NCBI GenBank assembly: GCA_903822595.1
Contig: CAIJPS010000014.1
Location: 1-64,000, forward strand
From: an uncultured Chlorobiaceae bacterium
GTDB taxonomy: Bacteria > Bacteroidota > Chlorobiia > Chlorobiales > Chlorobiaceae
Direction of reading: 5' to 3'
Length of the DNA stretch: 64,000 nt
Positions within the stretch are counted from its first letter, which is position 1. The number at the start of each line of letters is the position of its first letter. Positions 8,466 to 36,564 of the stretch are shown here, one piece after another. Made by a program: the position numbers and the translations under genes. The notes below the pieces were generated by a model, which was given only the letters and a program-made list of their open reading frames with translations, did not search any database and was not told the origin of the DNA.

Positions 8466-8644
8466 GGAATATTCTGAAAAGTTACCAAAGATAAGGAAAA
8501 AGAGAGAGTAAATTTTTGAAGTGCAAAATATTATTCTCTTCTGAAAAGGTGCATTTGCTGCATTTACTACATTCGCCAATGGTGGCGCGCCTCTCCGGGG
8601 TGTAGTTTGGAAAAACACCCTACACTTCCTATACGATCTACATG
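8466..8644 (+). repeat. Element subterminal repeat, left copy (inverted relative to 14560-14731)
   Basis: About 170 bases that match, imperfectly, the reverse complement of 14560-14731. Shared blocks in order are GGAATATTCYGAAAAGTTAC, a GA-rich run, TTGAAAAGGTGCATTTGCTGC, GGGGTGTAGT and a final TACATG. The right copy lies directly upstream of the replication operon, so the left copy may be a duplicated promoter/leader or replication-control site. The left copy leads only into a 14-codon frame. The rest of 8327-8734 holds no gene. Confidence 0.6.
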
Positions 8645-8734
8645 AAGAAAACCGGAACCCTGCCCGGCTCCGTATTGTATAACTTACTTTAGCTCTCCCA
8701 TTATTTCGCTGTATCGCCTTCTTAACTCTATAAG

Positions 8735-10547: not shown

Positions 10548-10672
10548 GGTTACCTCTCTGGAAAAAGTTTTAATCATTGGCTCACTAAAAATTGACTCCC
10601 AGCGGTCTATTTGGCGCGCATATGGGAAAATATTCCTTTGCCGCCCCTCCCTTCCGCTTATGCCCGGCTCAC

Positions 10673-11008
10673 TCATTCACCGCCCTCATTGATAGGGTGA
10701 ATCTTACATAGCCCGCCCCTATCCTCTCGCTCTTGGTTCATCCGTTGAAGGGTTTCTGTTATAAAAGCTAATGTTACCGCATCTTCTATAGCTTGGTTCG
10801 TTCTGTCTGTCTGAGCAAGAAATCGATAAAAAGCCCGCTCCAGTGCAAGCAATGATTTGAGCTGTTTAAACACCTCTTTCTTGATTACCATTTCTTCCGG
10901 TGTTGCTCGTGCAATTACTTCCTCTCCTACTTTTATGCGTTCTGCATGGTTTGCTTTCAGCTCCTTCCAGCTATCGAAAACCGTTATTGTAGGGGTTCCC
11001 TCTTTCAT
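10673..11008 (-). CDS. Unknown element protein
   Basis: 111 residues, mostly predicted helical and charged (VGEEVIARATPEEMVIKKEVFKQLKSLLALERAF), with a good ribosome site (AGGAAAAAACA). I recognise no family. It lies between the primase-like gene (80 bases upstream) and the terminase gene. In satellites this slot is often held by packaging-interference or helper-sensing proteins, but nothing in the sequence shows such a role. Confidence 0.65.
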   Translation of the reverse strand: MKEGTPTITVFDSWKELKANHAERIKVGEEVIARATPEEMVIKKEVFKQLKSLLALERAFYRFLAQTDRTNQAIEDAVTLAFITETLQRMNQEREDRGGLCKIHPINEGGE

Positions 11009-11087
11009 TGTTTTTTCCTGTTTGTGGTTAAAAAATGGCCTTCATAAACGGCCCATATTCAACGATCTAAACCCAAGCCTTATCTTT

Positions 11088-11993: not shown

Positions 11994-13132
11994 TAGAACA
12001 GCCTCCCGTCATCGGCTGGTTCTGTCGTCCGTGTTGTACAATCTGGACTATTTCGGACTTCTGGACTTTTGTTTTCAGGCTGTTTTTCATAGTCCAGTTG
12101 TCCAGCTCCTATAGAGGTCTGGATTTCTGGACTAACTTTTTCATACAATCCATGCGCAACCCTTTTAATCATTCCTATGTTTTCGAGAATCTTGATTTTC
12201 TCAAAGCAGGTTGAACGCTTGATGTTCCGCCTTCCTGCGGCATCCTCAAACGATCCTGTTTTGAACTGACTCGGCAACGAATCAAGAATCTCAATCAAAA
12301 CATGGTCTGGCTTTACTTCTGGTTTGTCTGCAAGGGAAAACAAGAAATACCTTTCAGGCTGGCGTATTAAGTGGAGCGTAAATTCTTCACAGTTGCGCCC
12401 GGTAACAGACAATTCAAACAGGCCCTTCTCTTTGGCATTTTTCTGAAATGCTGCTGTTACCTCGGCATCATCTGCAAGCAAGCTCGAACCACGACCACTA
12501 TAAAGCCCATCTTCATTTTGCTTCTTCCCGGTATGGTGAATTATGATTACAGTGAGATTGAACTCTTGCATCAATTTTCTTACGGCTTCCATAAACTCAC
12601 GCATCGAATCAGAACTATTCTCTTCACCACTAAAGAAATTCTTCAGCGGGTCAAGAACAAGTATATCCGGCTTGATTTCCGCAAGATTACCGCGAATCTC
12701 TGCAAATACTTCAGCTTTCTGCAAACGTAGTCCAGCGCTATGGAAGAGGAAATTTTCCCGTATTTTGTTTTCTTCCTCTTCATCAATGCAAAAGTATTCT
12801 CGAAAAAGCTTAAACAGGCTCTGCATCGTGCCCGGACTGTTTTCGCCATTGAGATAAAGAATTTTTCTTGGTTTCGATATTCCGAATCCTAAGACATCCC
12901 GCCCAAGAGCGACACCATAAAGAATGTTAAACAGAAATGTGGTTTTCCCTGCTTTCCCCTTCCCTGTAAGCTGCATTATTCCGCCTGCCATCAATACCGC
13001 ACCATGAATGGAATTCAGAACAACATCACCCTGAATCAACATCTTATCACAGAAATCAAAAGCGTTTTCAACTGACCAGCCATTGAAACCTTTTGCAATT
13101 GATTTTACTTCCCGCAGAATTGATGTTGTCAT
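11993..13132 (-). CDS. RepA-like AAA-family replicative ATPase/helicase
   Basis: 379 residues with a Walker A motif (GKGKAGKTT, about residue 57), a Walker B segment (PDILVLDPLKNFF) and the downstream VIIIHHTGK and GRGSSLLADDAEV motifs of RepA/DnaB-type (AAA_25) ATPases. The C-terminal 110 residues contain a winged-helix-like segment (SFEDAAGRRNIKRSTCFEKIKILENIGMI). Such proteins unwind or initiate replication of plasmids and integrative elements. It overlaps the gene before it by 4 bases (ATGA) and the one after it by one base. A GGAGG ribosome site precedes the start. Confidence 0.85.
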   Translation of the reverse strand: MTTSILREVKSIAKGFNGWSVENAFDFCDKMLIQGDVVLNSIHGAVLMAGGIMQLTGKGKAGKTTFLFNILYGVALGRDVLGFGISKPRKILYLNGENSPGTMQSLFKLFREYFCIDEEEENKIRENFLFHSAGLRLQKAEVFAEIRGNLAEIKPDILVLDPLKNFFSGEENSSDSMREFMEAVRKLMQEFNLTVIIIHHTGKKQNEDGLYSGRGSSLLADDAEVTAAFQKNAKEKGLFELSVTGRNCEEFTLHLIRQPERYFLFSLADKPEVKPDHVLIEILDSLPSQFKTGSFEDAAGRRNIKRSTCFEKIKILENIGMIKRVAHGLYEKVSPEIQTSIGAGQLDYEKQPENKSPEVRNSPDCTTRTTEPADDGRLF

Positions 13133-13404
13133 GCACCGGCCCTCCGCTCTGATCTGGTAACCAGCTTCCCATCAGGCCCTATAAAATAACTGTACCTTAT
13201 GCAAGCTGGCCAACCTGAAAGCGGAACAAAACAATCACTGATTGCCCGCTGTACTTTCTTCATATAGGCATCAATATTGAAAGGTTGATTATCTCGGTAA
13301 CCTCCCCTATATTGAAACTGTGAATGCCCATTCACGCCCAACAAATGCCTGTTCTTGCCCTGTAGCTGCCCGCTGCGGGGCTTTTTTTTGTCTGGTAGTT
13401 TCAT
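13129..13404 (-). CDS. Small basic element protein
   Basis: 91 residues, rich in Lys/Arg at the N-terminus (KKKPRSGQLQGKNRH). I recognise no family. Four-base ATGA overlaps with both neighbours and a strong AGGGGG ribosome site show that it is a real member of the replication operon. The product may be a DNA-binding accessory to the ATPase, but that is guesswork. Confidence 0.65.
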   Translation of the reverse strand: MKLPDKKKPRSGQLQGKNRHLLGVNGHSQFQYRGGYRDNQPFNIDAYMKKVQRAISDCFVPLSGWPACIRYSYFIGPDGKLVTRSERRAGA

Positions 13405-13673
13405 GCCTGGCCCCCTACTGTCTCAACGGCTGCCCGTGCGCTTCCGGTCAACATATAACGGTCAATCTCTGCCGGGTCGAACACAAGCCGCCCGAATGGT
13501 GACCGCCTGCCGGGGAAGGTGTCCGGTTGGGTGCAATGTTTTTTGTAGAGTGTGGCGCGTGCAATCTTCAGCCCGTGAACTTCTTGGAAATACTGAATTG
13601 CTCCTTCGGTGGATAGCGTTTTTTGCTGCCGGGGCTGAATCGATGGGGATAGCTGGGGTGTAGTGGTATTCAT
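13401..13673 (-). CDS. Helix-turn-helix (excisionase/AlpA-like) protein
   Basis: About 90 residues from the MNTTTPQLSP start; the frame extends a further 33 codons upstream. The segment STEGAIQYFQEVHGLKIARATLYKKH, followed by GRLVFDPAEIDRYM, is the layout of MerR/excisionase-type DNA-binding domains: helix-turn-helix, then a wing ending in an FDPAEID-like helix. In integrative elements such proteins direct excision or activate the replication operon. It is the first small gene of the tightly packed group 13673-10074. Confidence 0.7.
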   Translation of the reverse strand: MNTTTPQLSPSIQPRQQKTLSTEGAIQYFQEVHGLKIARATLYKKHCTQPDTFPGRRSPFGRLVFDPAEIDRYMLTGSARAAVETVGGQA

Positions 13674-13775
13674 ATCGCGTAATGTTTTCAGGTTACGAAT
13701 AAACGCTCTCGCGTTCCTGAAATCATTATAAAATATGCTGTAACGGTAGGGAAGAATTGAGAATTGAATCAAACT

Positions 13776-14519
13776 CTAATCAATAATCAATTTGTCCTTC
13801 ATGCGGTTTTTTGCCCTGCTCACTGGGGAACAGAATGTTTTTATTTTATTGTGTCCCGCTTCAGTTAAAATTAGGTTGTAACTCTCCATCCAACTCTTAC
13901 CCCGATCAAAAGTAAGTCCATCACCTCGCCGTGTATCATAAAGAAAGGCTCTCAACTCTTCCTGTTCCATTTGCTTCATCTGCTCGAAACAATAATCTTC
14001 AAAATTCGGCCTCCTTTTTAACGTCTTTGCCTTCGCCGCCTCATTCGACTTGTTACCGCCCTGATCTCCCGCCGAGGCTGGGGTCTGTGGCTGATCTTGC
14101 CTGAACACTTTGAGAAGCCCGTTTTCAAGCTCGTTCAATAGCTCCCATTTCTGATAATCCTCTGAATCCGTGCCATAGACAAGGTTTTTCATATCCCTGT
14201 GAAGAGCTGGTAAACCCGCCGAACTCCTGCGTTTAATAAGCTCTTGTTTTAAAAGAGAAACTCCGTTACAAATCGAATAAGCTAATGCCCGATCTTTTTT
14301 AGCAACAATCTCTTGTAAAGTAGGACTACCACACCTTTTCCAGATAGTAGTAGTAACTCCCGGATAATACATTCTACACTCAGCCTGCAACACTGCAAAA
14401 CTTTCTTCTGTAAGTATATCTCTTATCTGGGGACTTACATAAATGCTGTTCTTTTCGTATTCGAGAAAAGCTAAAACCAACAAGCCACGCTGCCTTATAT
14501 CCTCTTTGATACCGATCAT
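13776..14519 (-). CDS. Unknown element protein
   Basis: 247 residues, no recognised family. The N-terminal half is compact (PQIRDILTEESFAVLQAECRMYYPG), then a low-complexity linker (QPQTPASAGDQGGNKSNEAAKAK) leads to a C-terminal domain with NFEDYCFEQMKQMEQEEL. No good ribosome site precedes the ATG, so the true start could differ. The upstream region holds the right-hand subterminal repeat (14560-14731), which may be its promoter and leader. A regulatory role is possible by position only. Confidence 0.6.
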   Translation of the reverse strand: MIGIKEDIRQRGLLVLAFLEYEKNSIYVSPQIRDILTEESFAVLQAECRMYYPGVTTTIWKRCGSPTLQEIVAKKDRALAYSICNGVSLLKQELIKRRSSAGLPALHRDMKNLVYGTDSEDYQKWELLNELENGLLKVFRQDQPQTPASAGDQGGNKSNEAAKAKTLKRRPNFEDYCFEQMKQMEQEELRAFLYDTRRGDGLTFDRGKSWMESYNLILTEAGHNKIKTFCSPVSRAKNRMKDKLIID

Positions 14520-14559
14520 GTTCTGTCCATGTTATAATGAACTCTGCCCGATTCTTGCC

Positions 14560-14731
14560 CATGTACTGAATGTAGGGTCATATAGGGTAGTTTCTCAGAC
14601 TACACCCCTGCAAGGCCTGCCCCTGTTGAATAATGCAGCAAATGCACCCTTTTCAAAAGAGTAAAATATTTACCATTAAAAACCTGTTCCCTCTCTCTTT
14701 CTTTATGCTCTGTAACTTTTCGGAATATTCC
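14560..14731 (-). repeat. Element subterminal repeat, right copy (upstream of the replication operon)
   Basis: The reverse complement resembles 8466-8644 with the same blocks in the same order. In the direction of transcription it ends about 40 bases before the first operon gene (ATG at 14519). The GGGTGTAGT block can pair with the following ACTACCC block into a small hairpin. A promoter/leader, replication origin or recombinase arm site are all possible. Confidence 0.55.
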
Positions 14732-14752
14732 TTATAAAGTAAACGGGAATAT

Positions 14753-15820
14753 TTACCAACTGGGTAGTTTATCCATCGCCGCCGTTTTCGTCTCATCAAC
14801 AACCTTCGCGTAAACCTGAGTTATGGCAATAGTCGAATGGCCCATCAATTTACTTAAGGTGTAAAGGTCAACGCCATTTTGAAGGCTCATAACTGCGAAC
14901 GAATGCCGCGCGCAATGAGGGGAGAGGTTGAACGGAATGCCCGCCGCCACGCCCCAAGCTCGGAGAACATCCAAACAACGTGTTGCTCCCGGTAAAAGAA
15001 AAACCCGGTCATCATCGGCTGATCTGTTGTTGTGAAAGGCTTTTGCTTCTTTAAGATATTTCAACGCCTGCGCGCCCAACGTCAGATATTGTACTTTCTG
15101 GGTTTTCTGCATCTTGAAACAAATTTTCACCCTGTCGCCGTCCTGCTGAATGTCAGAATCACGCAACGCCCGAAGGTCTGAAATTCTTAATCCAGTGAGG
15201 CAAGCAAACAAAAAAGCGTTCCTTATTGCCGGGTGCACGCATGGTGTCGCCTCAAGGGTTTTGATCTGCTCAAGAGTCAGATATTTCAGGGAAACATCAT
15301 TCTTTTTGAACGGCTTTATTTTTCTGGTAAAATCAGATACAAGGCCCTCCCTTGCTGCTTGATTTAAAATGACTTTCAGCCCGTGAATGTAATTGCCCTT
15401 TGTTGTTTCCTTCAGCTTCAGGGTGTCGATATATGCCCGAAACTGCTCAGCCCATGACTGGCAAATATTATCCATCGGTAACGGCTTTTTCCCGTTGAAG
15501 TCTTGAAGGTGCTTCAATGTGTTTTTATAAAGAGGCTCTCCGTTCTTCTCTTGAAGTATTACCCTCTCGAAATACTCAAGAAAATCAGTGCTTTGCCTCT
15601 CTTTTCCAAGAAATACCGCTGCCGGGTCGATCTTCAACTGTGCTTCAATGTCTGCCGCCCTCGCTTCAGCCTGTCGCCTCGCTTTCTGGTACTCCCTGCC
15701 TGCTGGTTTCTCTGCCTGAATCTCGGTTTTAACCTGTTGCCTCCGGCCCTTGTGGTAGATATCAAGAGAGAAGGAAATGCCGCCTTTTTTCAGTGGAATT
15801 TCACGAACCGAAACGCCCAT
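14753..15820 (-). CDS. int: Site-specific tyrosine recombinase (integrase) of the element
   Basis: 355 residues. An N-terminal arm-binding domain with basic patches (HKGRRQQVKTEIQ) is followed by a SAM-like core-binding domain (about 85-175) and the catalytic domain. The catalytic set is visible: Arg in LTGLRISDLRAL, His-x-x-Arg in SPHCARHSFAVM, His in LMGHSTIAIT and the Tyr nucleophile in TQVYAKV. It reads leftward from just inside the right att copy, the usual position. It should catalyse integration at, and with the HTH protein excision from, the gcvPB start site. Confidence 0.92.
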   Translation of the reverse strand: MGVSVREIPLKKGGISFSLDIYHKGRRQQVKTEIQAEKPAGREYQKARRQAEARAADIEAQLKIDPAAVFLGKERQSTDFLEYFERVILQEKNGEPLYKNTLKHLQDFNGKKPLPMDNICQSWAEQFRAYIDTLKLKETTKGNYIHGLKVILNQAAREGLVSDFTRKIKPFKKNDVSLKYLTLEQIKTLEATPCVHPAIRNAFLFACLTGLRISDLRALRDSDIQQDGDRVKICFKMQKTQKVQYLTLGAQALKYLKEAKAFHNNRSADDDRVFLLPGATRCLDVLRAWGVAAGIPFNLSPHCARHSFAVMSLQNGVDLYTLSKLMGHSTIAITQVYAKVVDETKTAAMDKLPSW

Positions 15821-15982
15821 ATTAACCCCGTTTTTTCTTGTAAACTTTGCAGAAACTTTACAAATATAACGGAATATTACAGAAAAGTAATGACAAATAT
15901 GGAAGAAAAGGGGAGAGGAGAAGGAATATAGAACCTGTTAAAATGTTATTTTAAAAAGTTTTTACGAGAACTTTTGAAAATC

Positions 15983-16033
15983 AGGGAGAAATAAAGAAAA
16001 TAAGGTCTGCAAAAATCAGTTTTTCTCTCATGA
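15983..16033 (-). other. Orphan 16-codon frame at the right att, cut-off start of gcvPB
   Basis: Reading leftward from the ATG in the right att copy gives the gcvPB codons MREKLIF, then nine element-derived codons (ADLIFFISP) and TGA at 15983-15985. It is preceded by what looks like the original gcvPB ribosome site (16034-16043). The frame is what remains, on this side, of the gcvPB translation start after integration. Confidence 0.7.
16012..16033. repeat. att repeat, right copy
   Basis: Second copy of the 22-bp repeat at 8305-8326. It marks the right boundary of the element. Sequence to its right (16034 onward) is host DNA and presumably the original upstream region of gcvPB. Confidence 0.85.
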
Positions 16034-16043
16034 TCCTTTCTAT
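16034..16043 (-). promoter_or_regulatory. Probable original gcvPB ribosome binding site, now separated from the gene
   Basis: On the minus strand the bases before the right-hand ATG read AGAAAGGATC, a normal AAAGGA site 4-9 bases before the start. The corresponding bases before the present gcvPB start (8327 onward) lack such a site. Confidence 0.6.
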
Positions 16044-16140
16044 AAAACCTGATAGAGTGTTGTTCTTAAATACTTTGGATGATAAAATCGCTTTGGTGTA
16101 ATACAAGAACTTTATAAACCGGGGAAAGTTCTGCTTACTG

Positions 16141-16195
16141 CGAAAATATTACAAAAACTCAAGATAAGGAAAGTATACTCTTCTGAATGGTGAAT
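16141..16195 (+). repeat. Partial copy of the element's left-end sequence outside the element
   Basis: GAAAATATTACAAAAACT, AAGATAAGGA and CTCTTCTGAA occur here in the same order as GGAATATTCTGAAAAGTT, AAGATAAGGA and CTCTTCTGAA at 8466-8545, with the sequence between them shortened. It lies 110 bases beyond the right att copy. Confidence 0.4.
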
Positions 16196-16289
16196 TATTT
16201 TTCCGTATGGTTAACCTTAGACCGTGCAGAGCGCTGATGACAGGTTGTTGATGGCAGTTCAGTTAGCAATACTATTCGGTCTCCCAGAC

Positions 16290-16316
16290 AATTTTGCCAC
16301 ATCCTGTGGCAAAATT
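16290..16316. other. Perfect 12-bp inverted repeat
   Basis: AATTTTGCCACA, loop TCC, TGTGGCAAAATT. It is a stable hairpin without a T-run on either strand, so it is not a canonical terminator. It sits at the start of the YhcG remnant. Confidence 0.6.
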
Positions 16317-16527
16317 ACCGGAGCAGGCCTTGCTTGCTGGTATTCTCTTGGGTTATCACAGCTTATTGATTGAAAAAATAAAGGATGTATCGCTTCGATT
16401 CTGGTACATGAAGCAAACTGCAACAAACGGTTGGAACCTCGACACCTTTGCCGCAACGATTAAAACCGATCTGTATAACCGCCAGAGCTTGCTGGCCAGA
16501 GACAACAGAAAGGCCGGTTCGCAGTGA
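16294..16527 (+). pseudogene. Fragment of YhcG/DUF1016-type nuclease
   Basis: The reading frame contains HSLLIEKIKDVSLRFWYMKQTATNGWNLDTFAATI and KTDLYNRQ. This follows the DUF1016 N-terminal pattern (LLDKVKD, then RLWYxxxxxxNGWSRxxLxxQI, then LYxRQ). Only about 75 codons remain; the PDDEXK nuclease half is absent and a convergent gene follows at once. The characteristic Trp-Ser-Arg is changed to WNLD. It is a decayed defence- or mobile-element-associated gene with no expected function. Confidence 0.6.
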
Positions 16528-16534
16528 TCCGGAT

Positions 16535-16777
16535 TTACGCAGGCACAGATCGGTTCCAGAGCGTTTCCGGTGCAATATCGAGATTTCCTGGCCAGACTAC
16601 AGTGCCATATTGCACAGAAGCCTTGAAGAAGAGTGGAGAGTTGCAGAGTTTGGTAAAGGGTTTTTTGTCTAAAAATGGCTTCATGTCAAATATTCTCCTC
16701 TCTCCGTTTTCAAAAACAAGTTCCAGGGTGTAGTTGGTATGAGTTGTTACCTTTATAACATCAAGAAGTTGTTCCAT
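16535..16777 (-). CDS. DUF2442 domain protein
   Basis: 80 residues: DVIKVTTHTNYTLELVFENGERRIFDMKPFLD near the start and YGTVVWPGNLDIAPETLW near the end are the DUF2442 signature. These small proteins normally occur as the downstream partner of a DUF4160 protein, the arrangement here: the decayed DUF4160 gene ends 11 bases upstream. A GGAGGATATT ribosome site precedes the ATG. The pair is often regarded as toxin-antitoxin-like; function is unproven. Confidence 0.8.
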   Translation of the reverse strand: MEQLLDVIKVTTHTNYTLELVFENGERRIFDMKPFLDKKPFTKLCNSPLFFKASVQYGTVVWPGNLDIAPETLWNRSVPA

Positions 16778-16788
16778 AATATCCTCCT

Positions 16789-17058
16789 TTATTGAAGTGG
16801 TGCGATCCGAAATGGCTCTTCACCGGCGCATGCAAGTTCCCAGTCAGCCATAAGCTCTTCTCTGTGAATGTCTATCCATACTTGAACCATCCGAAGCTGC
16901 CGATGAGGGATATTTCCAGCAAGAAGACTCCCATCCTAAATGGCTATCGAGACACTTTTTCCCTGGTATCGTGCATGAACGTGCGGAGTATGGTGTTGTT
17001 CATCGTCGCCATAAAAAATTGAAATCAGGATTCCGAAAAACATTGAGATAGTTGGCAT
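16789..17058 (-). pseudogene. DUF4160 domain protein interrupted by an amber codon
   Basis: The conceptual 89-residue product starts MPTISMFFGI, contains HTPHVHARYQG, and after the break has DGSLLAGNIPHRQLRMVQVWIDIHREELMADW. That is the complete DUF4160 pattern. Codon 41 (16936-16938, minus strand) is TAG, exactly before DGSLL. The rest of the frame is intact, so this is a recent single-base loss. It lies immediately upstream of the DUF2442 gene. Confidence 0.85.
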
Positions 17059-17224
17059 CTGTTCATCCTTTTATTGAATACGGACCATAGATGTCCAATA
17101 CATCTTAATGGAAAAGAGTTATGGTGACGCTTCTCGTCATGGTGTTTGTTAGAAAGAAAGTACTACTTAACGAAGATAATCTAACGTTATTACGCAAAAG
17201 TAGTCCTACTGATAGAGAAGATTT

Positions 17225-18067
17225 TTAGCTCAGGGTGAGATGAATGCGCTCCATAGCCTCTTTGGCGGCGAGTTGTTCTGCATCTTTTTTCCGTTGGGCG
17301 GTGCCTGTTCCGAGGAGCTCACCGGAGCAGCTTACCCCTACGGTGAAGCTCTTTTCGTGCTCTGCGCCGGTTTCGGTTATCACCGTGTAGAGGGGAGGGG
17401 GCAGATGGTTCGACTGGGTGTATTCGATGAGGCGGCTTTTGTAGTTATGTTCAGCGGCTACAATGGTATTGAAATTGACATGCTCAATGATGTTGCGGAT
17501 GACAAAATCGAAAGCTGTTTTGATCCCTTTGTCGAGATAGATGGCGCCGATGAGTGATTCGAAGGCGTCGGCAAGGGCGGACTCGCTGCTCCGGATTTTA
17601 TGATGGTCAGCCGATTCGCCGAGGATGAGGTGGTCGCCGAGGCCAAGGCTGCGGGCAAAACCGGCAAGTGATTTGCTGTTGACAATTTTTGCGCGGTTGC
17701 TTGAAAGCTCTCCTTCGGCACTTTCGGGAAAGCCTTTAAAAAGGTATTCGGAAATCAACATGCCGAGCACCGAGTCGCCGAGAAATTCAAGGCGCTGGTT
17801 GGATTCGATGAGGCTGGTTGTGGCCGGGTCATGAACGACGGAGCGGTGGGTTAACGCGGTCTGATAAAGTGGCAGGTTACTGATGGGCTCTCCGACAAGC
17901 CGCTGCAGATAGGCCACCGTTTCAGCCGAAAGAGCAGTACCCGTTTCGCAAGTTCCAGAAGTCGCATGTGTACGATCACTTCCATTTTCCGAATCGTTGC
18001 AACAATCCCCTGACCGATGCAACGCTAACGTTTTCAGCTTTTGCCAGAATTGCTCCACAGGCAGCAA
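17225..18067 (-). CDS. rnc: Ribonuclease III
   Basis: Cleaves double-stranded RNA in rRNA maturation and regulation. 280 residues: an extra, Ser/Thr-rich N-terminal stretch of about 45 residues, then the catalytic domain with the signature NQRLEFLGDSVLGMLISEYLF (Glu/Asp metal ligands) and ALADAFESLIGAIYLD, then a double-stranded RNA-binding domain (YKSRLIEYTQ through GTGTAQRKKDAEQLAAKEAMERI). It follows fabF by 8 bases, the usual GSB and Bacteroidota arrangement fabF-rnc. Confidence 0.95.
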   Translation of the reverse strand: MLPVEQFWQKLKTLALHRSGDCCNDSENGSDRTHATSGTCETGTALSAETVAYLQRLVGEPISNLPLYQTALTHRSVVHDPATTSLIESNQRLEFLGDSVLGMLISEYLFKGFPESAEGELSSNRAKIVNSKSLAGFARSLGLGDHLILGESADHHKIRSSESALADAFESLIGAIYLDKGIKTAFDFVIRNIIEHVNFNTIVAAEHNYKSRLIEYTQSNHLPPPLYTVITETGAEHEKSFTVGVSCSGELLGTGTAQRKKDAEQLAAKEAMERIHLTLS

Positions 18068-25641: not shown

Positions 25642-26973
25642 ATGCTCAATGTCCTCATTGTTGATGATGAAATTAATATCCGCAAGACACTTTCGGTTTT
25701 TATGGAATCGCGCGGCTATAGTGTCAAAGCGGTAAGCAGCTCCCGTGATGCATTTGCGGAGGCTGAGTTGCGGGTTTTTGACCTTGCCTTTGTCGATTTG
25801 CGTTTAGGAACCGAAAACGGTCTTGATCTGGTGCAGTCGCTCCAGGATGCCTGTCCATGGATCAAAGTTGTTGTTATCACTGCTTATGCCTCTATCGATA
25901 CGGCTGTTGAAGCCATGAAGAGGGGCGCAGCAGACTATATTCCAAAGCCATTTACACCTGATCAGCTTGAGCTGGTTATCAAGCGTCTTTCCGCAGTGTG
26001 CGGTATGGAGCAGCGCATTGCTTCGTTGCAGGAGGATCTCAGCCGCATGCATCCGGAAGTAACGTTCAATTCCCGTTATCCTGCCATGCAGCGGGCTGTC
26101 GAACTGGCCCGAAAAGTAGCCTCTTCTGAAGCTGTTGTGCTGTTACGGGGTCCGAGTGGTACGGGAAAAACGGTTCTTGCCCGAGCAATTCATAACTGGA
26201 GCCGCAGGGCAGAAAAACCATTTGGGGTGATTTCATGCCCGTCATTAAGTCAGGAGCTTCTTGAAAGTGAGCTTTTCGGTCATGTCAAAGGCTCATTTAC
26301 CGGGGCGGTCAGGGATAATCCGGGAAGGGTATCCTCCTGCGAAGGGGGCTCACTGTTTCTTGATGAAATCGGAGACCTTCCCCTTGCAATACAGCCCAAA
26401 TTTCTTCGTTTTCTTCAGGATCGGGAGTATGAGCGGATCGGTGATTATCAGACACGCAAAGCGGATGTACGGATCATTGCTGCAACCAATATGGATCTTG
26501 AGACGGCGGTCAGGGATGGGCGTTTTCGTGAAGACCTTTTGTACCGGCTGAATGTTATCCAGATTGACTTGCCGCCCCTTGCGGGCAGACCGGATGATGT
26601 TGAGCAGCTTGCAGGGAACATGCTGAAGTTTTTTGCTTCCCAGAACCATAAAAACCTTGATGGATTTATGGAGAGTGCCCTTCTTGCACTCAGGACGTAT
26701 TCCTGGCCGGGTAATGTCCGGGAGTTGCGCAATGTTGTTGAGCGTGCAGTGATTCTGAGCAAAGCAGATCGAATCGGTGTGGAACTTCTGCCCGAACAGA
26801 TTTTTTCAAAAGCGCATCCTGTGCGCATTGGAGATCCCTTGACTCTTGATGTGATTGAAGAAAACCATATCCGTCGTATTCTTGCGTCTTCAAAATCCCT
26901 TCAGGAAGCTGCCGATCTTCTTGGTATCGACCAGGCCACCCTCTGGAGAAAACGGAAACAATACCGGATTTAA
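25642..26973 (+). CDS. Sigma-54-dependent response regulator (NtrC/AlgB type)
   Basis: 443 residues. The receiver domain (1-120) has the acidic pair near the N-terminus and the phospho-acceptor Asp in FVDLRLG. The AAA+ domain (about 140-375) has Walker A GPSGTGKT, the sigma-54 contact loop GSFTGA (in place of the usual GAFTGA), Walker B GGSLFLDEIGDL and the arginine-finger region. The C-terminal Fis-type helix-turn-helix reads SLQEAADLLGIDQATLWRKRK. It should activate -24/-12 promoters; a good candidate lies at 29302 in front of the nearby sensor kinase and kdp genes. Confidence 0.92.
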   Translation: MLNVLIVDDEINIRKTLSVFMESRGYSVKAVSSSRDAFAEAELRVFDLAFVDLRLGTENGLDLVQSLQDACPWIKVVVITAYASIDTAVEAMKRGAADYIPKPFTPDQLELVIKRLSAVCGMEQRIASLQEDLSRMHPEVTFNSRYPAMQRAVELARKVASSEAVVLLRGPSGTGKTVLARAIHNWSRRAEKPFGVISCPSLSQELLESELFGHVKGSFTGAVRDNPGRVSSCEGGSLFLDEIGDLPLAIQPKFLRFLQDREYERIGDYQTRKADVRIIAATNMDLETAVRDGRFREDLLYRLNVIQIDLPPLAGRPDDVEQLAGNMLKFFASQNHKNLDGFMESALLALRTYSWPGNVRELRNVVERAVILSKADRIGVELLPEQIFSKAHPVRIGDPLTLDVIEENHIRRILASSKSLQEAADLLGIDQATLWRKRKQYRI

Positions 26974-27167
26974 TTGTCAATACCTCCTTGCAAAATTCAA
27001 TGAGTGCGCTTTTCGACCCTTGTGTTTTGCACGATATCCTTTTTCTCACTTTCCCTATGTTGGTGATTTTAAGGCAGGTTGCAACCGTTTTGTTGCTGCA
27101 CCTGTTTTGATCCGGACGTAAAATGAGGCAGCCTCATCCGGGTATTAATTATTTCGGATTGTTAACT

Positions 27168-29162
27168 ATGGCAGTGAATAACGTACTCAGGCAGATAAAA
27201 ACGTTTTTTCTTGGGGGCGCGAGGGATTTTCGGGATCAAAATATTTTTCACAAGCTGGCACTCTCAGCCTTTCTTGCATGGGTTGGACTTGGTTCAGACG
27301 GTCTCTCCTCCTCCTGTTATGGCCCTCCCGAAGCGTTCAAGGCTCTTCAAGGACATCCTACCCTTGGGATTTTTGTTGCTATTGGAACAGGAATTACCAT
27401 TCTCATTATTGCTACCAGTTATTCGCATATCATCGAGCTGTTCCCTCATGGCGGCGGCGGATACCTTGTTGCCAGCAAATTGCTTTCTCCCAAAATGGGG
27501 GTTATTTCAGGCAGTGCGCTTCTTATCGATTATGTGCTTACCATTACGATATCGATTGCCAGTGGCGCAGATGCGATTTTCAGCTTTCTCCCTATTGGAT
27601 TCATAGGTTATAAACTGTGGTTTGCTGTTTTCGGGGTTACTGTTTTACTGATTCTGAACCTTAGGGGTATCAAAGAGGCTGTGATGCCTCTTGTTCCGGT
27701 TTTTCTTCTGTTTGTCGTGACCCACTTGATTGTCATAGTCTATGCGGTGTTTACCCATATGATGGACTTTGGTGCGGTTTATCATGCGACCGGTCGTGAG
27801 CTCACCAGTTCATTTCATACTCTGGGCATTTTCGGAGTGATCTTTCTTGTTTTGAAAGCATACAGTCTTGGTGCTGGTACTTTCACTGGTATTGAAGCGG
27901 TCAGTAACGGCCTTCCTGTCCTTCGGGACCCGAAAGTCGAGACGGCAAAAAAAACCATGAAATACATGGCCATCTCTCTTTCTGTGACAGTCATGGGTCT
28001 CATGTTGGCCTATATTCTTTTTGATGTGCATGATTCGCCCGGCAAAACCTTGAATGCCATTTTGTTTGAGAGTGTAACGTCATCCTGGGGCGGGTATTCG
28101 GGTGTTGCGTTTGTCTGGGTAACGCTGTTTTCGGAAGCAGTTCTGCTCTTTATTGCCGCACAGACCGGCTTTCTTGACGGACCGAGGGTGCTGGCTAATA
28201 TGGCGCTCGACAAGTGGCTGCCCACGCGCTTTGCCATGCTGAGCGACAGGCTGGTGACGGAGAAGGGAATTCTTGTCATGGGCTTCGCATCACTTGTTAT
28301 GATGCTGGCATCAAATGGATCGGTTGATTTTCTGATTGTTCTTTACAGTATCAATGTCTTTATAACGTTTTCTCTCTCCCAGCTTGGTATGGTGAGGCAC
28401 TGGTGGGCAAAAAGAGGATCAGAAAAACAGTGGGCTCGAAAACTGGTTATCAATGGCATCGGCCTTACTCTGACGACTTTTATTTTGATTTCTGTATTGA
28501 TTCTCAAGTTTAATGAGGGTGGCTGGGTTACCATACTGATTACTGGCTTACTGGTTATTGGTGCTTTTTTTATCAAGGATCACTACAACAAGACCTATGT
28601 CACCCTTAAGCGGCTCGATGTTATTGTTGAAGCTGCGGTGCTGACCGGTTCTGATGTGCACGACAAGGAGAGCGAACACTCTACTCCGGTTCCGGCTTTT
28701 GATACCAAAGCTAAAACGGCAGCTATTCTGGTGAACGGTTTTAACGGCTTGGGTCTTCATACCCTGTTCAGCGTATTCCGTCTTTTCGGCAATAGTTATA
28801 AAAATTATGTTTTTGTTGAGATTGGTTCGATTGATGCCGGAAACTTCAAAGGGGCTGATGAAATCGATAACCTTGGCAGCTTTGTGCGCAACGAGACCTC
28901 CAAGTATGTTGAATACATGACGGAGCATGGGTACTATTCTGAGGCGTACTTTTCTCTTGGAACCGATGTGGTTGATGAGGTGAACAAACTTGTTCCAGCC
29001 ATCAGGGAAAAATATCCGGATATTGTGTTTTTTGGCGGGCAGCTTGTTTTTACAAAAGAGTCTCTCATGGATCGCTGGCTGCACAATTATACGGTTTTTG
29101 CCATACAGCGGAACCTCTATGTGTATGGCATTCCTTTTGTAATCTTGCCAATCAAGGTTTGA
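27168..29162 (+). CDS. APC-family potassium transporter, KimA/YdaO-like
   Basis: 664 residues from the MAVNNVLRQIK start; an ATG 15 codons upstream (27123) is equally possible because neither has a clear ribosome site. About 12 membrane segments fill residues 30-500. WVGLGSDGLSSSCYGPPEAF and SYSHIIELFPHGGGGYLVASKLL near the N-terminus are characteristic of the KimA-like high-affinity K+ importer group rather than amino-acid permeases. A soluble C-terminal domain of about 150 residues follows. Lying between a two-component regulator gene and its probable kinase, next to kdp, supports a K+ role. No frameshift or lost motif is seen. Confidence 0.8.
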   Translation: MAVNNVLRQIKTFFLGGARDFRDQNIFHKLALSAFLAWVGLGSDGLSSSCYGPPEAFKALQGHPTLGIFVAIGTGITILIIATSYSHIIELFPHGGGGYLVASKLLSPKMGVISGSALLIDYVLTITISIASGADAIFSFLPIGFIGYKLWFAVFGVTVLLILNLRGIKEAVMPLVPVFLLFVVTHLIVIVYAVFTHMMDFGAVYHATGRELTSSFHTLGIFGVIFLVLKAYSLGAGTFTGIEAVSNGLPVLRDPKVETAKKTMKYMAISLSVTVMGLMLAYILFDVHDSPGKTLNAILFESVTSSWGGYSGVAFVWVTLFSEAVLLFIAAQTGFLDGPRVLANMALDKWLPTRFAMLSDRLVTEKGILVMGFASLVMMLASNGSVDFLIVLYSINVFITFSLSQLGMVRHWWAKRGSEKQWARKLVINGIGLTLTTFILISVLILKFNEGGWVTILITGLLVIGAFFIKDHYNKTYVTLKRLDVIVEAAVLTGSDVHDKESEHSTPVPAFDTKAKTAAILVNGFNGLGLHTLFSVFRLFGNSYKNYVFVEIGSIDAGNFKGADEIDNLGSFVRNETSKYVEYMTEHGYYSEAYFSLGTDVVDEVNKLVPAIREKYPDIVFFGGQLVFTKESLMDRWLHNYTVFAIQRNLYVYGIPFVILPIKV

Positions 29163-29342: not shown

Positions 29343-31169
29343 ATGGTTGGTATACGACAAAAACTTTTGCTGGGGTTTGGTGGCCTGCTTCTTATTGTTG
29401 CAGCCATGGGTGTTCTCACCATCAGGCAGATCGATTTACTTGGCGGAGCTATCGATGTCATGCTCAAGCAGAACTATCGCAGCGTTGTTGCCTGCCAGAA
29501 TATGACAGCATCTCTTGAGCGTATTGACAGCGGAGTATTGTTTACCTTTGCAGGTCATTACCAGGAAGGTGTGAACGCTATTCGGCAGCATGAAGAGCAT
29601 TTTTATAATGCGCTGCAAGTTGAACTCGGCAATATCACCTTGCTTGGTGAAGATCAGAAAGCCTTGCGGATTCGGAAGCTGTTTCTGGAGTCTTCAAGAG
29701 TCCTTGAGCAGGTTACTGACTCGTCTGCACCTCTCTCCCTGAGGCAGAAACGATATTTTTCTTCCCTGTTACCGATTTTTCAGGAAATCAAGCAGCTATC
29801 CGGTGAGGTTCTTGAAATGAACCAATCCAATATGCATCATGCAAATAATAATGCCCGCATTATGGCTGCATCGGCACACAATACTATGCTTGTTACGATT
29901 TTTGCCAGTGCCGTTATTGCCCTTTTGTTCAGCTATCAGTCACATCGATGGATTCTCCTGCCGATTAAAAAGCTTATTGCTTCGGCAGAAGAGATCAGAA
30001 AGGGAAATCTTGATCTTGTGCTTGATACCACTTCCAATGATGAAATCGGACGGCTTTCAAGGTCATTTAACGATATGGCCTCTACTCTGCGCAAAATGCG
30101 TAAAACTGATACGGATACTCTGCTCCGGACGCGAAGTGCAACACAGGAGGTGTTCAAGGTACTTCCCTCACCCATAGCGGTGCTCGATCAGAACGGTGAA
30201 GTTGAAGTAGCAACTGAAACCGCAGAAAGCTATTTCGGTCTGAAACCGGGAGTTAATGTTCGCGATCTTGGGCACGAGTGGCTGAGGAAATTGCTTCAGA
30301 AAGCTTATCGCCAGGATTATGCAACTGAAAGCGGTGAGGGAAATGGCTTTATTCAGCATTTTGTCGGGAATCACGAATACTTTTTTCAGCCTCAGGTAGT
30401 TCTTGTTCCAGCCGGAACAGCGCTGATTCTCAGGGATGTAACGCAGGTTTTCGAACAGCTCGAACTGAAGCGTAGCGTTATTGCAACCGTTTCCCATCAA
30501 CTGAAGACTCCTTTAACCTCTTTGAGGATGTCGATCCATCTGTTGCTTGAGGAGCGTGTCGGCAACCTGAACGAACAACAGTCAGATCTGCTCTTTGCCG
30601 CGCGGGATGAAAGTGAACGACTGGTGCATATCCTTGATGATCTTCTGGACCTCAACCGGATAGAATCCGGAAAAGCACATCTGAATGTTCATCCGGTATC
30701 TCTTTCTCGTATCGGTAGCGAAGGAATAGAACTTTTTGCTCTGCATGCCCGAGATCATGGAGTAACTCTTGTCAATACCATAGCGGAAGGGCTTCCGGAA
30801 GTCATGGCAGATCCTGAACGTATCCGCCATGTGTTTGCTAATCTCTTGTCCAATGCCTTGCGGTTTACTCCCCCTGGTGGCACCGTTACGTTAAGTGCCG
30901 TTAAAGAGCAGGATAACATCCGGTTTTCCATTGAAGATACCGGAAAAGGAATTTCAGAAGAACATCTCGCACATCTTTTTGAACAATTTTACCGGGTTCC
31001 CGGACAACCGGCAGAAAGCGGTATCGGGCTCGGACTCTCCATTGTCAAGGAGATCATAGACGCACATGGCGGAAGCGTTGGAGCCGAAAGCGATTCGGGA
31101 AGTGGTTCGGTTTTTTGGTTTACCATACCTATACAAAAGAATACCGGTGAAAATCAAACCACTATATAA
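29343..31169 (+). CDS. Membrane sensor histidine kinase (HAMP-PAS-HisKA-HATPase)
   Basis: 608 residues: TM1 (about 8-25), a periplasmic helical domain of about 145 residues, TM2 (about 178-198), HAMP (200-252), a PAS-like segment (275-365), HisKA with the phospho-acceptor His in ATVSHQLKTPLTSLRMS (about residue 386), and HATPase with NLLSNALRFTPP, DTGKGI and GIGLGLSIVKEI. The layout resembles KinB, the partner of the NtrC-type regulator AlgB. It is probably the partner of the response regulator at 25642. First gene of the sigma-54-driven kdp group. Confidence 0.9.
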   Translation: MVGIRQKLLLGFGGLLLIVAAMGVLTIRQIDLLGGAIDVMLKQNYRSVVACQNMTASLERIDSGVLFTFAGHYQEGVNAIRQHEEHFYNALQVELGNITLLGEDQKALRIRKLFLESSRVLEQVTDSSAPLSLRQKRYFSSLLPIFQEIKQLSGEVLEMNQSNMHHANNNARIMAASAHNTMLVTIFASAVIALLFSYQSHRWILLPIKKLIASAEEIRKGNLDLVLDTTSNDEIGRLSRSFNDMASTLRKMRKTDTDTLLRTRSATQEVFKVLPSPIAVLDQNGEVEVATETAESYFGLKPGVNVRDLGHEWLRKLLQKAYRQDYATESGEGNGFIQHFVGNHEYFFQPQVVLVPAGTALILRDVTQVFEQLELKRSVIATVSHQLKTPLTSLRMSIHLLLEERVGNLNEQQSDLLFAARDESERLVHILDDLLDLNRIESGKAHLNVHPVSLSRIGSEGIELFALHARDHGVTLVNTIAEGLPEVMADPERIRHVFANLLSNALRFTPPGGTVTLSAVKEQDNIRFSIEDTGKGISEEHLAHLFEQFYRVPGQPAESGIGLGLSIVKEIIDAHGGSVGAESDSGSGSVFWFTIPIQKNTGENQTTI

Positions 31170-31378: not shown

Positions 31379-33049
31379 ATGATACTGCTGTTTTTATTAG
31401 TGCTTCTTGGTCCAGCACTCTTGTCGTGGCCTCTCGGTCATGCAATGGCACTTTTGATAGACCCTGCTCAGACATCGAACTATGGTCGCTGGACTTCAGG
31501 GATTTTCAGCAAAACAGGAGGGGTTGCTGCCGTTGAAGAGCAGGATTGGAAAGGATATCTTTTTTCCATGCTGATATGCAATGTCGTCATGTTTGTTTTT
31601 GTGGCCATTGTTCTTGCCCTGCTGCAATGGATGCCGCTCAATCCCGACGGAAAGGGGCCGCTTGAGGCAAGCCTTATCTTTAATACGGTCTTCTCGTTTG
31701 TAACGAACACCAACCTTCAGCATTACTCTGGAGAGGTGTCCATGAGCTATTTTTCCCAGCTTTTTGGTTTGATGTGGCTGCAGTTTGTTTCGGCTGCGAC
31801 AGGGATTGCCTGCCTTGCTGCTCTTGCCAGAGCGCTGGGCGGGAGAGAGACGGTCGGCAACTTTTACTCCGATCTGATGCGGACCACTCTTTTTATTTTG
31901 CTGCCGCTTGCTCTGCTTGTTGCCCTTCTTCTTCTTGCTGGAGGAGTTCCGATGACCTTGAATGGTGCCGTAATTGCCCATACTCTTGAACATGCAACAC
32001 AGACCATAGCCCGAGGCCCGGTAGCAGCCATGGAGGCCATCAAACAGCTCGGAACAAACGGCGGAGTTTTTTTCGGGCCGAATTCAACCCATCCTTTCGA
32101 GAACCCATCTTTCTTTACCAATATCATAGAGTGTACCAGTATTGTTTTGATTCCAATGGGCGCGGTATGGATGTTCGGGCGCATAACGGGCCGAATACGC
32201 GATGCAGCGGTTATTTTTACGGTTATGATGGTGCTGCTTCTGTTGAAAGGAGCTGCAGCCGTATGGCTTGAAGGTGATCCAACAGCCGCATTTTCAGGAC
32301 TTCCTGTCGAGCTGTCATCGAATCTCGAAGGCAAGGAGCTTCACTTTGGGTCTGGTGCCGGTGCTCTTTGGGCGGCAGTGACGACAGCTACCAGCAACGG
32401 TTCGGTCAACTGCATGCACGATAGCCTTAATCCGCTGACCGGACTTGTCCCTCTTGCCGGCATGTGGATGAATGTCGTTTTTGGCGGGGTTGGCGTTGGT
32501 CTTATCAACATGTTCATTTTTATCATCGTCGGTGTATTTATCTGTGGCATGATGGTTGGTCGTACCCCGGAATATTTTGGGCGTAAAGTTGAAACCCGGG
32601 AAATGACGCTTGCACTTCTTGCGCTACTCGTTCATCCTGCACTGATTCTCGGCGGTACGGCACTTTTTGCGGCTACTCCCGCAGGTGCTTCAACCGTACT
32701 CAACACCGGGGTTCACGGTTTTACAGAAATTCTTTACGAGTTTACATCGGCAGCGGCTAACAACGGTTCAGGCTTCGAAGGGCTTGGAGATAACACGGTT
32801 CCCTGGAATGTTGCAACCGGAATCGTTATGCTGCTTGCCCGATATATTCCAATCATTCTGCCTCTTGCCATTGCCGGTTCTCTCGCTGCGAAAAAACCGG
32901 TTCCGGAAACTGCCGGTACTCTCCGGACCGATACCTTGCTTTTTACCGTCATTATTTTCGGCAGCGTTGTTTTTATCGGAGCACTGCTTTTTCTGCCGGT
33001 AGCTGTGCTTGGTCCTGTAGCTGATCATCTTGCAGCATTAAGGTATTGA
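31379..33049 (+). CDS. kdpA: K+-transporting ATPase subunit A
   Basis: 556 residues, about ten membrane helices, the channel-like subunit that binds K+. The selectivity-filter segments are present: FNTVFSFVTNTNLQHYSGE, LGTNGGVFFGPNSTHPFENP, ATSNGSVNCMHDSLNPLTG and FTSAAANNGSGFEGL. The reading frame is complete. No ribosome site is obvious before the ATG, so it probably depends on coupling to kdpF. Its partner subunit KdpB is truncated (next entry). Confidence 0.95.
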   Translation: MILLFLLVLLGPALLSWPLGHAMALLIDPAQTSNYGRWTSGIFSKTGGVAAVEEQDWKGYLFSMLICNVVMFVFVAIVLALLQWMPLNPDGKGPLEASLIFNTVFSFVTNTNLQHYSGEVSMSYFSQLFGLMWLQFVSAATGIACLAALARALGGRETVGNFYSDLMRTTLFILLPLALLVALLLLAGGVPMTLNGAVIAHTLEHATQTIARGPVAAMEAIKQLGTNGGVFFGPNSTHPFENPSFFTNIIECTSIVLIPMGAVWMFGRITGRIRDAAVIFTVMMVLLLLKGAAAVWLEGDPTAAFSGLPVELSSNLEGKELHFGSGAGALWAAVTTATSNGSVNCMHDSLNPLTGLVPLAGMWMNVVFGGVGVGLINMFIFIIVGVFICGMMVGRTPEYFGRKVETREMTLALLALLVHPALILGGTALFAATPAGASTVLNTGVHGFTEILYEFTSAAANNGSGFEGLGDNTVPWNVATGIVMLLARYIPIILPLAIAGSLAAKKPVPETAGTLRTDTLLFTVIIFGSVVFIGALLFLPVAVLGPVADHLAALRY

Positions 33050-34851
33050 GTCAGAATGAAATATCTGAAAGCATTAATCATAACATCATGATGAACAGTA
33101 ATTCCTTTCCGAGCGCCTATGATCAGGCAAAATCCGTGCGCCGTCAGGCGAGAAAAGCATCTATTTTTGAAAAAAAACTGGTGCAGAATGCTCTCAGCCG
33201 ATCAATAATGATGCTTGATCCGAGGGCAATGGTAAAAAATCCGGTCATGTTTGTCACTGAAGCTGGAGCTTTTCTGACAACGCTTATCGCGGTTTCAAAT
33301 GCACTGACCGGAGCCGGGCACCAGCTCTATACCGTTGCAGTCATGCTTATCCTGTGGCTTACGGTGATGTTTTCCAATTTTGCTGAAGCTTTGGCGGAAG
33401 CTCGTGGCAAAGCACAGACTGACACTCTCAAGAGAACACGACAGAGCACGGTCGCCCGAAGAGTAATAAATGGCAAGGAAGAGTCCGTAAGTTCTGACAA
33501 TCTGCAGGAGGGCGATCGGGTTATTGTTTTGACAGGCGAAATTATTCCGGGAGATGGAGAGGTAGTCGAGGGTGCCGCCATGGTCGACGAATCGGCTATT
33601 ACCGGTGAATCAGCGCCGGTTGTGAGAGAGGCTGGCGGCGACCGATCGGGTGTTGTTGGCGGAACAAGAGTCATCTCTGATCATATTGTCGTGCGTATTT
33701 CTGTTTCAGCCGGGCACTCTTTTCTTGATAAAATGATCGCTCTTGTTGAAGGGGCCGTTCGGCAGAAAACTCCGAATGAGCTGGCGCTGACCGTTACTCT
33801 CGCCGGTCTTACCCTTGCATTTTTGATGGTAACCGGTACGCTCTGGCCTATCGGCAGATATTTTGGGATAATGCTGCCTGTACCGACGCTGGTTGCTCTT
33901 CTTGTCTGTCTTATTCCAACAACTATCGGAGCCCTTCTCTCCGCCATAGGGCTGGCCGGTATGGACCGGGCACTTTCAGCCAATGTGCTGGCAAAGAGCG
34001 GCAAAGCGGTTGAACTTGCAGGCGATATCGATACCCTTCTGCTCGACAAGACCGGCACGATCACCATAGGTAACCGTCAGGCAACGGACTATTTCCCGCT
34101 GCCGGGTATCCAGAGGGAGCGCCTTGCTTTGGTCGCAATGAAGGCATCATTCGGTGATCAGACCCCTGAAGGAAAATCAATTATTGCCCTTGCTGAAGAG
34201 ATGCTGGGCATAAAGGCTCCTGCCGAAGTTGATGGAAACGTAGTGCCCTTTTCTGCGCAATCCCGAATGAGCGGCATTGATCTTCCTGATGGTCAGAGTC
34301 TGCGCAAGGGTGCGCCGGATACCCTCATCAGTTTTTGTGAAAAACAGGGTGGGAGTGTTTCGGAAAAGCTGCAGGGGCTGGTTGACGACGTTGCTCGCAA
34401 AGGCATGACACCAATTGTCGTTGCGGAAGGAGGTGAACTTCTTGGCAGTGAACTGATTGCCCAGCAGTTTACCCGACCGGAATATTTCTGGTCTCGTCCT
34501 TCGGCAGTGTCATGGAACGCCGCAGGAGCAGGAGGCAGCAATCTGTCGCCCGCATCGATGGCGGCACGCCAGAGAACGGAAAAACTGCTTGCTGAACTGG
34601 CACTGAAAAAAGGTGAAAAGGTACCTGCTGATCTTGTTACAGCTTCAGGTAGCGGTCTTGACCCCCACATTTCACTTGCAGCAGCCAAATTTCAGGTGCC
34701 GAGAGTTGCTTTTGCGAGGGGCCTCTCCATTGACCAGGTGCTGAGGGTTCTTGATAAACCGGCAAATGGAAAATCTATCCTCCCATTTACCAGTGAGTTT
34801 CTGGTCAATGTGCTGCAACTCAACAGATCGCTTGACCGACTGAAAAAATAA
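33046..34851 (+). CDS. kdpB: In-frame fusion of truncated KdpB and truncated KdpC
   Basis: 601 residues in one open frame. Residues 1 to about 467 are KdpB: actuator TGES (AITGESAPV), KLIPTTIGALLSAIGLAGMDR-like segment, phosphorylation site DKTGTITIGNRQ and most of the nucleotide-binding domain, ending VVAEGGELLG. From about 468 (SELIAQQFTRPEYFWSRPSA, SGGSNL-like AGGSNLSP, VTASGSGLDPHIS) the sequence is KdpC to its normal end. Missing are the last ~220 residues of KdpB (GDGxNDAPA hinge motif and the final membrane helices) and the first ~50 of KdpC including its membrane anchor. The pump should be inactive. TTG start chosen (AAGG ribosome site, TTGA overlap with kdpA); ATG at 33088 is the alternative. 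Confidence 0.92.
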   Translation: MSQNEISESINHNIMMNSNSFPSAYDQAKSVRRQARKASIFEKKLVQNALSRSIMMLDPRAMVKNPVMFVTEAGAFLTTLIAVSNALTGAGHQLYTVAVMLILWLTVMFSNFAEALAEARGKAQTDTLKRTRQSTVARRVINGKEESVSSDNLQEGDRVIVLTGEIIPGDGEVVEGAAMVDESAITGESAPVVREAGGDRSGVVGGTRVISDHIVVRISVSAGHSFLDKMIALVEGAVRQKTPNELALTVTLAGLTLAFLMVTGTLWPIGRYFGIMLPVPTLVALLVCLIPTTIGALLSAIGLAGMDRALSANVLAKSGKAVELAGDIDTLLLDKTGTITIGNRQATDYFPLPGIQRERLALVAMKASFGDQTPEGKSIIALAEEMLGIKAPAEVDGNVVPFSAQSRMSGIDLPDGQSLRKGAPDTLISFCEKQGGSVSEKLQGLVDDVARKGMTPIVVAEGGELLGSELIAQQFTRPEYFWSRPSAVSWNAAGAGGSNLSPASMAARQRTEKLLAELALKKGEKVPADLVTASGSGLDPHISLAAAKFQVPRVAFARGLSIDQVLRVLDKPANGKSILPFTSEFLVNVLQLNRSLDRLKK

Positions 34852-34863
34852 TTCCGTAAACGA

Positions 34864-36564
34864 ATGGTATCAAGGGCAGAGAGAGCTATGGATAGCAACA
34901 ACAGAGCCGACAGTTTTTTGCGTCTCATCCAGCGGTCGCAACGGGGTAAACTCAAGATTTATGTCGGGTACTGCGCTGGTGTGGGGAAAACCTGGCAGAT
35001 GCTGCAGGAAGCAAGGCGCCTTAAGGAGAGTGGCATCGACGTGGTTGTCGGCCTTGTAGAAACCCATAAAAGAAAAGAGACAGAAGCCCTCCTTTCCGGT
35101 CTCGACATCATGGCGCGTAAAATCCTGGTTTATCGCGGAATCGAAATTACAGAAATGGATATCGATGCGATTCTTCAGCGCCGTCCATTTGTTGTGCTTG
35201 TCGATGAACTTGCGCATACAAACATTCCCGGAAGCAGGAATTCCAAGCGTTATGAAGATGTTGAAGAAATTCTTGCTGCCGGTATTCATGTGATTTCGAC
35301 CATGAACATCCAGCATATCGAGAGCCTTTATGAAACAGTAGAACATGCAACTGGTGTGAAGGTCAAGGAAAGGGTGCCCGATCGTATGTTGTCGTTGGCC
35401 GATCAGCTTGTCAATGTCGATATTACCACCGATGATCTGCGGCAGCGTCTGAGAGAAGGAAAGGTCTATCTTCCCGGTCATTCGGGAGCTGCACTATCCA
35501 ACTTTTTCCAACCGGAAAACCTTGAGCAGCTTCGTGAACTTACTCTCAGGGAACTTGCGGCACAGCTTGATTCGAGGCGTCGTAACCAGTTTCATGATGA
35601 ATCTGTTTCGAATCCCGACCAGCTTATGGTTTGTCTCAGTTCAAAAACCCGGAATTGTGAAGCAATCCTGCGCTACGCATCTCGTATAGCAGGACGACTG
35701 AACAGAAACTGGTATGCAGTCTATGTTCAAACCCTTTCCGACAATCCAGCCAATATCGATGCGAGGGTACAACGGTTACTCTCCAATACCCTTGCCCTTG
35801 CCCAGCAACTCGGAGCTACCGTATTTACCTACAAGGGAGATGATGTGGTGAAGACCATTCTGCAGTTTGCAAGGGAGTATCGTGTCGGACATATCATTAT
35901 CGGTAATTCAGGACGAAAACTTTTATTTTGGCAGCGCCTTATGGGTCGGCAAACCGTTGTTGAGCAATTAATCAGTGAATGCCGGGGCATCAGCGTGATT
36001 GTCCTTGATACAAGAGAAGAGGATGCTGTGAAAGAACCAAAAACGCCTGCGCAACTTTTTTCCGGTATTAAGGAGACTTTTTCGACATCAAAGCAGTTGC
36101 AGAATGAATGGAAGGAACCGATTCGGAATGCAAGGGTCCTTTTATGGGAGCGTGTTCTGGAAAAGGAGGATGCTTTTCGTGAGCTTCTTCACGAATGTTG
36201 CTTGGCAAATCCTGGAATTGATGAGGCAAGCGCATTCCAGAGTCTCCTTGAACGGGAAAAACAGGGGGGTACATTTGTCGGGGATGAAATTGCTATTCCT
36301 CATGCAAGACTCCATAATCTGAACAAACCGGTTGTTGCTATTGGTGTCAACAAAATTGGTATTTATGATCGGGAATCAAGCAAAACCGCCAGGATAATCT
36401 TCCTGATGCTCTCTCCACTGTCAGATCCGAACAGTCATATCAGGCTTCTTGGAGCTATCAGTAAAATGGCTGCTGACAGCCAGTGGCGCAGTATGATGCT
36501 TCGAGCCGGGAACACAAAAGAGATTCTCCGGATTATAAGGAGCCGCTTGATTTTGTCTCGTTGA
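34864..36564 (+). CDS. KdpD-type sensor without kinase, fused to USP and PTS EIIA domains
   Basis: 566 residues. Residues ~20-235 are the cytoplasmic KdpD domain: Walker A GYCAGVGKTWQML, then GIDVVVGLVETHKRKETEALL, Walker B FVVLVDELAHTN and HVISTMNIQHIESL. Residues ~250-385 form a universal-stress-type domain (HIIIGNSGRKLLF). Residues ~420-560 are a type-2 PTS EIIA (PtsN-like) domain with its phospho-His in VGDEIAIPHARLHN (His480) and the tail HIRLLGAISKM. The four membrane helices, GAF, HisKA and HATPase of full KdpD are absent. It is therefore a K+/PTS signal integrator, not a kinase. ATG at 34888 is an alternative start. Confidence 0.88.
   Translation: MVSRAERAMDSNNRADSFLRLIQRSQRGKLKIYVGYCAGVGKTWQMLQEARRLKESGIDVVVGLVETHKRKETEALLSGLDIMARKILVYRGIEITEMDIDAILQRRPFVVLVDELAHTNIPGSRNSKRYEDVEEILAAGIHVISTMNIQHIESLYETVEHATGVKVKERVPDRMLSLADQLVNVDITTDDLRQRLREGKVYLPGHSGAALSNFFQPENLEQLRELTLRELAAQLDSRRRNQFHDESVSNPDQLMVCLSSKTRNCEAILRYASRIAGRLNRNWYAVYVQTLSDNPANIDARVQRLLSNTLALAQQLGATVFTYKGDDVVKTILQFAREYRVGHIIIGNSGRKLLFWQRLMGRQTVVEQLISECRGISVIVLDTREEDAVKEPKTPAQLFSGIKETFSTSKQLQNEWKEPIRNARVLLWERVLEKEDAFRELLHECCLANPGIDEASAFQSLLEREKQGGTFVGDEIAIPHARLHNLNKPVVAIGVNKIGIYDRESSKTARIIFLMLSPLSDPNSHIRLLGAISKMAADSQWRSMMLRAGNTKEILRIIRSRLILSR

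Follow-up and report, generated by a model that had tools for sequence, protein, structure and literature searches.

We consider it very likely that the kdp operon in the window is a young set of pseudogenes, in which a recent deletion has fused kdpB to kdpC and left a dead pump in a cell that keeps a Kup homologue and a KimA-like transporter. The window is the whole 64,000-nt stretch of DNA analysed, positions 1-64000 of contig C14 of draft genome G000 (3.04 Mb, 109 contigs, estimated 97.6% complete). We compared it with Chlorobium and uncultured Chlorobiaceae metagenome-assembled genomes, of which Chlorobium sp. L227-S-6D (G003) carries the closest intact kdp operon.

The fused kdpB-kdpC frame and the deletion

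A single open reading frame occupies positions 33046-34851. It encodes 601 residues when counted from the mechanical TTG start; the probable start is the ATG at 33088 (MMNSNSFP...), where the intact kdpB of G003 also begins, which gives 587 residues. The N-terminal part of the product matches the KdpB profile TIGR01497 (E 3e-161, profile positions 3-440 of 675) and the C-terminal part matches KdpC (PF02669 positions 40-181; NF001454 positions 43-190). Counted from the ATG, KdpB residues 1-453 are followed directly, in one frame, by KdpC from GSELI, the sequence at the switch reading GAACTTCTTGGC on the KdpB side and AGTGAACTGATTGCC on the KdpC side. The frame and its profile matches bear out the preliminary description, in which KdpB continued unbroken into KdpC; the switch that it placed at about residue 467 is correct from the TTG but falls at residue 453 from the ATG. 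The features of the operon and its neighbours are as follows.

25642-26973, + strand: NtrC-type sigma-54 response regulator, frame intact.
27123-29162, + strand: KimA-like APC-type transporter, frame intact; named by resemblance, with a profile match to AA_permease_2 only.
29343-31169, + strand: histidine kinase (HAMP, HisKA, HATPase_c) upstream of kdpA, frame intact (domain profile matches).
31379-33049, + strand: kdpA, full length, with missense G230V at 32066-32068 in the filter motif TNGGG (E. coli G234), from alignment with E. coli and relatives.
33088-34446, + strand: 5' part of kdpB, codons 1-453, in frame with kdpC; TIGR01497 to position 440 of 675, with 91.5% nucleotide identity and dS 0.31 to intact G003 kdpB.
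34442-34446, + strand: deletion junction, 5-bp microhomology TTGGC, 926 bp absent relative to G003 (overlapping HSPs; both parental sequences in G003).
34447-34851, + strand: 3' part of kdpC including the stop codon, soluble domain without the N-terminal membrane anchor (PF02669 40-181; hydrophobic segment 14-45 of G003 KdpC absent).
34864-36564, + strand: KdpD-type sensor domain without a kinase domain, then a PTS EIIA-2 domain, frame intact (domain profile matches).

Relative to G003, exactly 926 bp are missing, slightly more than the 0.8-0.9 kb estimated beforehand. The pentanucleotide TTGGC is present at both joined points in G003, and the two alignments overlap by these 5 bp at 34442-34446, confirming the earlier suggestion of a short matching sequence at the junction; the chance of at least 5 bp being shared at a random junction is ~0.005. 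In G003, kdpB (~695 residues) and kdpC (~192 residues) are separate genes in different frames. The fused frame is open because 926 mod 3 = 2, which is also the offset between the kdpB and kdpC frames. Thus, the deletion had been called in-frame, and the fused frame is indeed open, but the 926-bp loss aligned two differing frames by chance. An open frame after such a deletion is a one-in-three event and is explicable without selection.

We propose that 926 bp were lost recently in a spontaneous deletion, with slippage or end joining at the direct repeat TTGGC in kdpB and kdpC as the probable route. This event would have taken out the 3' third of kdpB together with the 5' end of kdpC, the frame staying continuous by chance. 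Deletion-fusion pseudogenes at short direct repeats have the same short repeat at their ends, the same removal of indispensable portions from two neighbouring genes and the same chance retention of frame, and the fused kdpBC shows no essential difference from them. It is an ordinary member of that class and raises no new question.

Separate, intact kdpB and kdpC were found in the Chlorobium relatives G003, G023, G036 and G027, which share the gene order and 80-95% amino-acid identity across the retained part of KdpB and, unlike the window, retain the 926 bp. A query for the KdpB/KdpC junction region matched 28 of 65 genomes of the genus, with a KdpB-KdpC frame running across the junction only in G000. 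Across the phylum, KdpC was found in 106 of 394 genomes; G000 alone has it in a 608-codon frame, the next longest being 397 codons, and none of the 106 carries an independent KdpB-KdpC fusion. Among the titles and abstracts listed, we found no description of such a fusion. In two genomes, G110 (contig C26) and G176 (contigs C19 and C20), an open frame of ~350-376 codons in which the KdpC profile is matched in two separate halves lies beside a normal KdpC.

Within G000, profile searches of the assembly with kdpB and kdpC revealed no second copy of either gene. The lost 926 bp had no match as DNA in the rest of the assembly, in a search made without a positive control. The lost part of KdpB, searched as protein, matched only other P-type ATPases, and an intact copy elsewhere in G000 was rejected as a candidate. 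The comparisons proposed in the preliminary description therefore gave intact separate genes in sister strains, no second copy in this genome by profile, DNA or protein search, and no relative with the same fusion among the 106 KdpC-bearing genomes of the phylum.

An alternative is that the cell holds intact kdpB and kdpC and that the assembly, or its consensus, was joined across the 926 bp. The genome is a draft in 109 contigs and a second P-type ATPase, on contig C10, has likewise lost an internal segment at a short repeat. However, the 5 bp shared at the junction are far below typical short-read assembler k-mers, the junction lies within a 96.8-kb contig, the lost segment matches nothing else in the assembly, and KdpA has a lesion of its own. 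An assembly error behind the fusion is thus unlikely, and a minor allele in the population might also be the source of the fused sequence.

The P-type ATPase remnant on C10 (971-1761, loci L128 and L149) is a degenerate second copy, with an intact 841-residue paralogue on C23. It has an internal deletion of ~0.88 kb between two copies of GATGCTGACCGG (TGES and TGDN sites) and, in addition, a 20-bp tandem duplication.

Lesions in the pump subunits

The fusion product retains the A-domain motif TGES (residue 172) and the phospho-acceptor motif DKTGT (residue 320). It lacks the P-domain motifs TGDN and GDGTNDAP, which G003 KdpB has at 483 and 529. A hydropathy scan, which merged or missed some KdpB membrane segments, indicated that the hydrophobic segments beyond residue 595 of G003 KdpB, the last three of that subunit, and the hydrophobic anchor 14-45 of G003 KdpC are absent as well. 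The losses first described, of part of the P domain, the last KdpB helices and the KdpC anchor, are thereby upheld. No P-type ATPase can complete catalysis once the second half of the P domain is gone. Because TGDN, GDGTNDAP, the last helices of KdpB and the anchor of KdpC are all missing, the fusion product would almost certainly not function as a P-type pump.

KdpB has seven transmembrane segments, and KdpC, which crosses the membrane once, is oriented towards the periplasm (PMC6255902). On this topology, KdpB is cut within the cytoplasmic P domain, past the first four membrane segments, and so the KdpC domain of the fusion should be cytoplasmic instead of periplasmic.

The preliminary description took the flanking genes to be intact, and their frames are indeed open and KdpA is full length, but KdpA carries the substitution G230V. 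Val230 aligns with E. coli Gly234 of the selectivity filter motif T230-N231-G232-G233-G234, which reads TNGGV in the window. All the other fetched KdpA loci in which the motif occurs have glycine here, and among the 24 KdpA sequences of the genus that were compared this residue does not vary otherwise. In the same motif of E. coli KdpA, G232D lowers affinity and selectivity (PMC12629597). This second lesion supports decay of the operon over a lone odd junction and, together with the lost motifs, it agrees with the earlier expectation that the pump should be dead.

Comparison with E. coli KdpFABC (structures 5MRW and 6HRA) indicates what is shared, namely a full-length KdpA, the A domain, N domain and first part of the P domain of KdpB including DKTGT, and the soluble domain of KdpC. 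Unlike in E. coli, KdpB and KdpC form one chain here, the second half of the P domain, the last KdpB helices and the KdpC anchor are gone, and the KdpA filter is altered at the position of E. coli G234.

Selection, age and the recombination tract

We counted polarised amino-acid and synonymous changes against G003. The KdpB part gave 3 versus 1 amino-acid changes and 22 versus 28 synonymous changes (p 0.33), and the KdpC part showed no excess of amino-acid change (p 1.0). In KdpA there was a weak excess, with 6 versus 1 amino-acid and 27 versus 43 synonymous changes (p ~0.04). The simplest reading of these counts is a recent inactivation: neither the KdpB nor the KdpC remnant bears a detectable trace of relaxed selection, and so the deletion probably happened recently.

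The open frame and the absence of an amino-acid excess fit recency, but they also fit selection on the fused protein for a new, non-pumping role, as might be the case if it partnered KdpA in a regulatory or dominant-negative way or modulated the KdpD-type sensor. We regard such a role as very improbable, since the fusion is seen once among 106 KdpC-bearing genomes, retention of frame is the one-in-three event described above, the KdpC domain is expected on the wrong side of the membrane and KdpA has a changed filter.

Synonymous divergence from G003 is far lower in kdpA (dS 0.47) and the kdpB remnant (0.31) than in the flanking response regulator (1.03), histidine kinase (1.36) and LeuA (1.13) genes, and the genome backbone, unlike kdpA-kdpB, is closest to G023. 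We infer from this that kdpA-kdpB was exchanged with a relative of G003. A change-point analysis of synonymous sites placed the best right boundary of this tract at 34,924, with a 2-log-unit interval of 34,549-34,936; the G003-like tract thus runs ~100-490 bp beyond the junction, and we rejected the junction as the tract edge. This places the deletion within the tract, and recombination is therefore no explanation for it. That the fusion arose where a tract from an L227-S-6D relative ended illegitimately in the recipient kdpC, by homology-facilitated illegitimate recombination, is scarcely credible: the low dS of kdpA-kdpB against flanks above 1 and the shift near the junction fit it, but the right end falls at 34.55-34.94 kb and a boundary at the junction is ~6 log units worse than the best. 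More broadly, the kdp operon at 31400-34900 is a mosaic, with short G076-like stretches (33.86-34.45 kb and 34.85-35.03 kb) accompanying the G003-like kdpA-kdpB tract.

Other potassium transport and the surrounding window

Members of the genus can do without the kdp operon, and about half of their genomes lack such a pump. The KimA-like transporter had been put forward as a backup, and its gene is present in the kdp cluster, but the clearest remaining potassium uptake system is the single Kup homologue of G000, on contig C33; TrkH was not found in G000 in a search with positive controls. Because other potassium transporters are kept and about half of the relatives lack the pump, we read the fusion as ordinary gene decay. 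With its short-repeat deletion and its selectivity-filter missense, the operon is a clean young example of the loss of an optional transporter. It is also a warning for annotation, as two above-threshold domain matches in one long frame can belong to a non-working fusion.

The KimA-like gene is flanked by those for the response regulator and the histidine kinase; it is present in G003 and absent from this location in G023 and G036. The KdpD-type sensor domain with PTS EIIA-2, the separate histidine kinase and the NtrC-type regulator form an unusual kdp regulatory set that relatives also have.

Elsewhere in the window, positions 8330-17248 hold an insert of ~8.9 kb that is absent from G003 and G036, near which no tRNA gene was found. 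It encodes an integrase, an AAA_25 ATPase, a DUF6371/zinc-ribbon protein and a phage terminase small subunit and, from this gene content, looks like an integrative, phage-satellite-like element.
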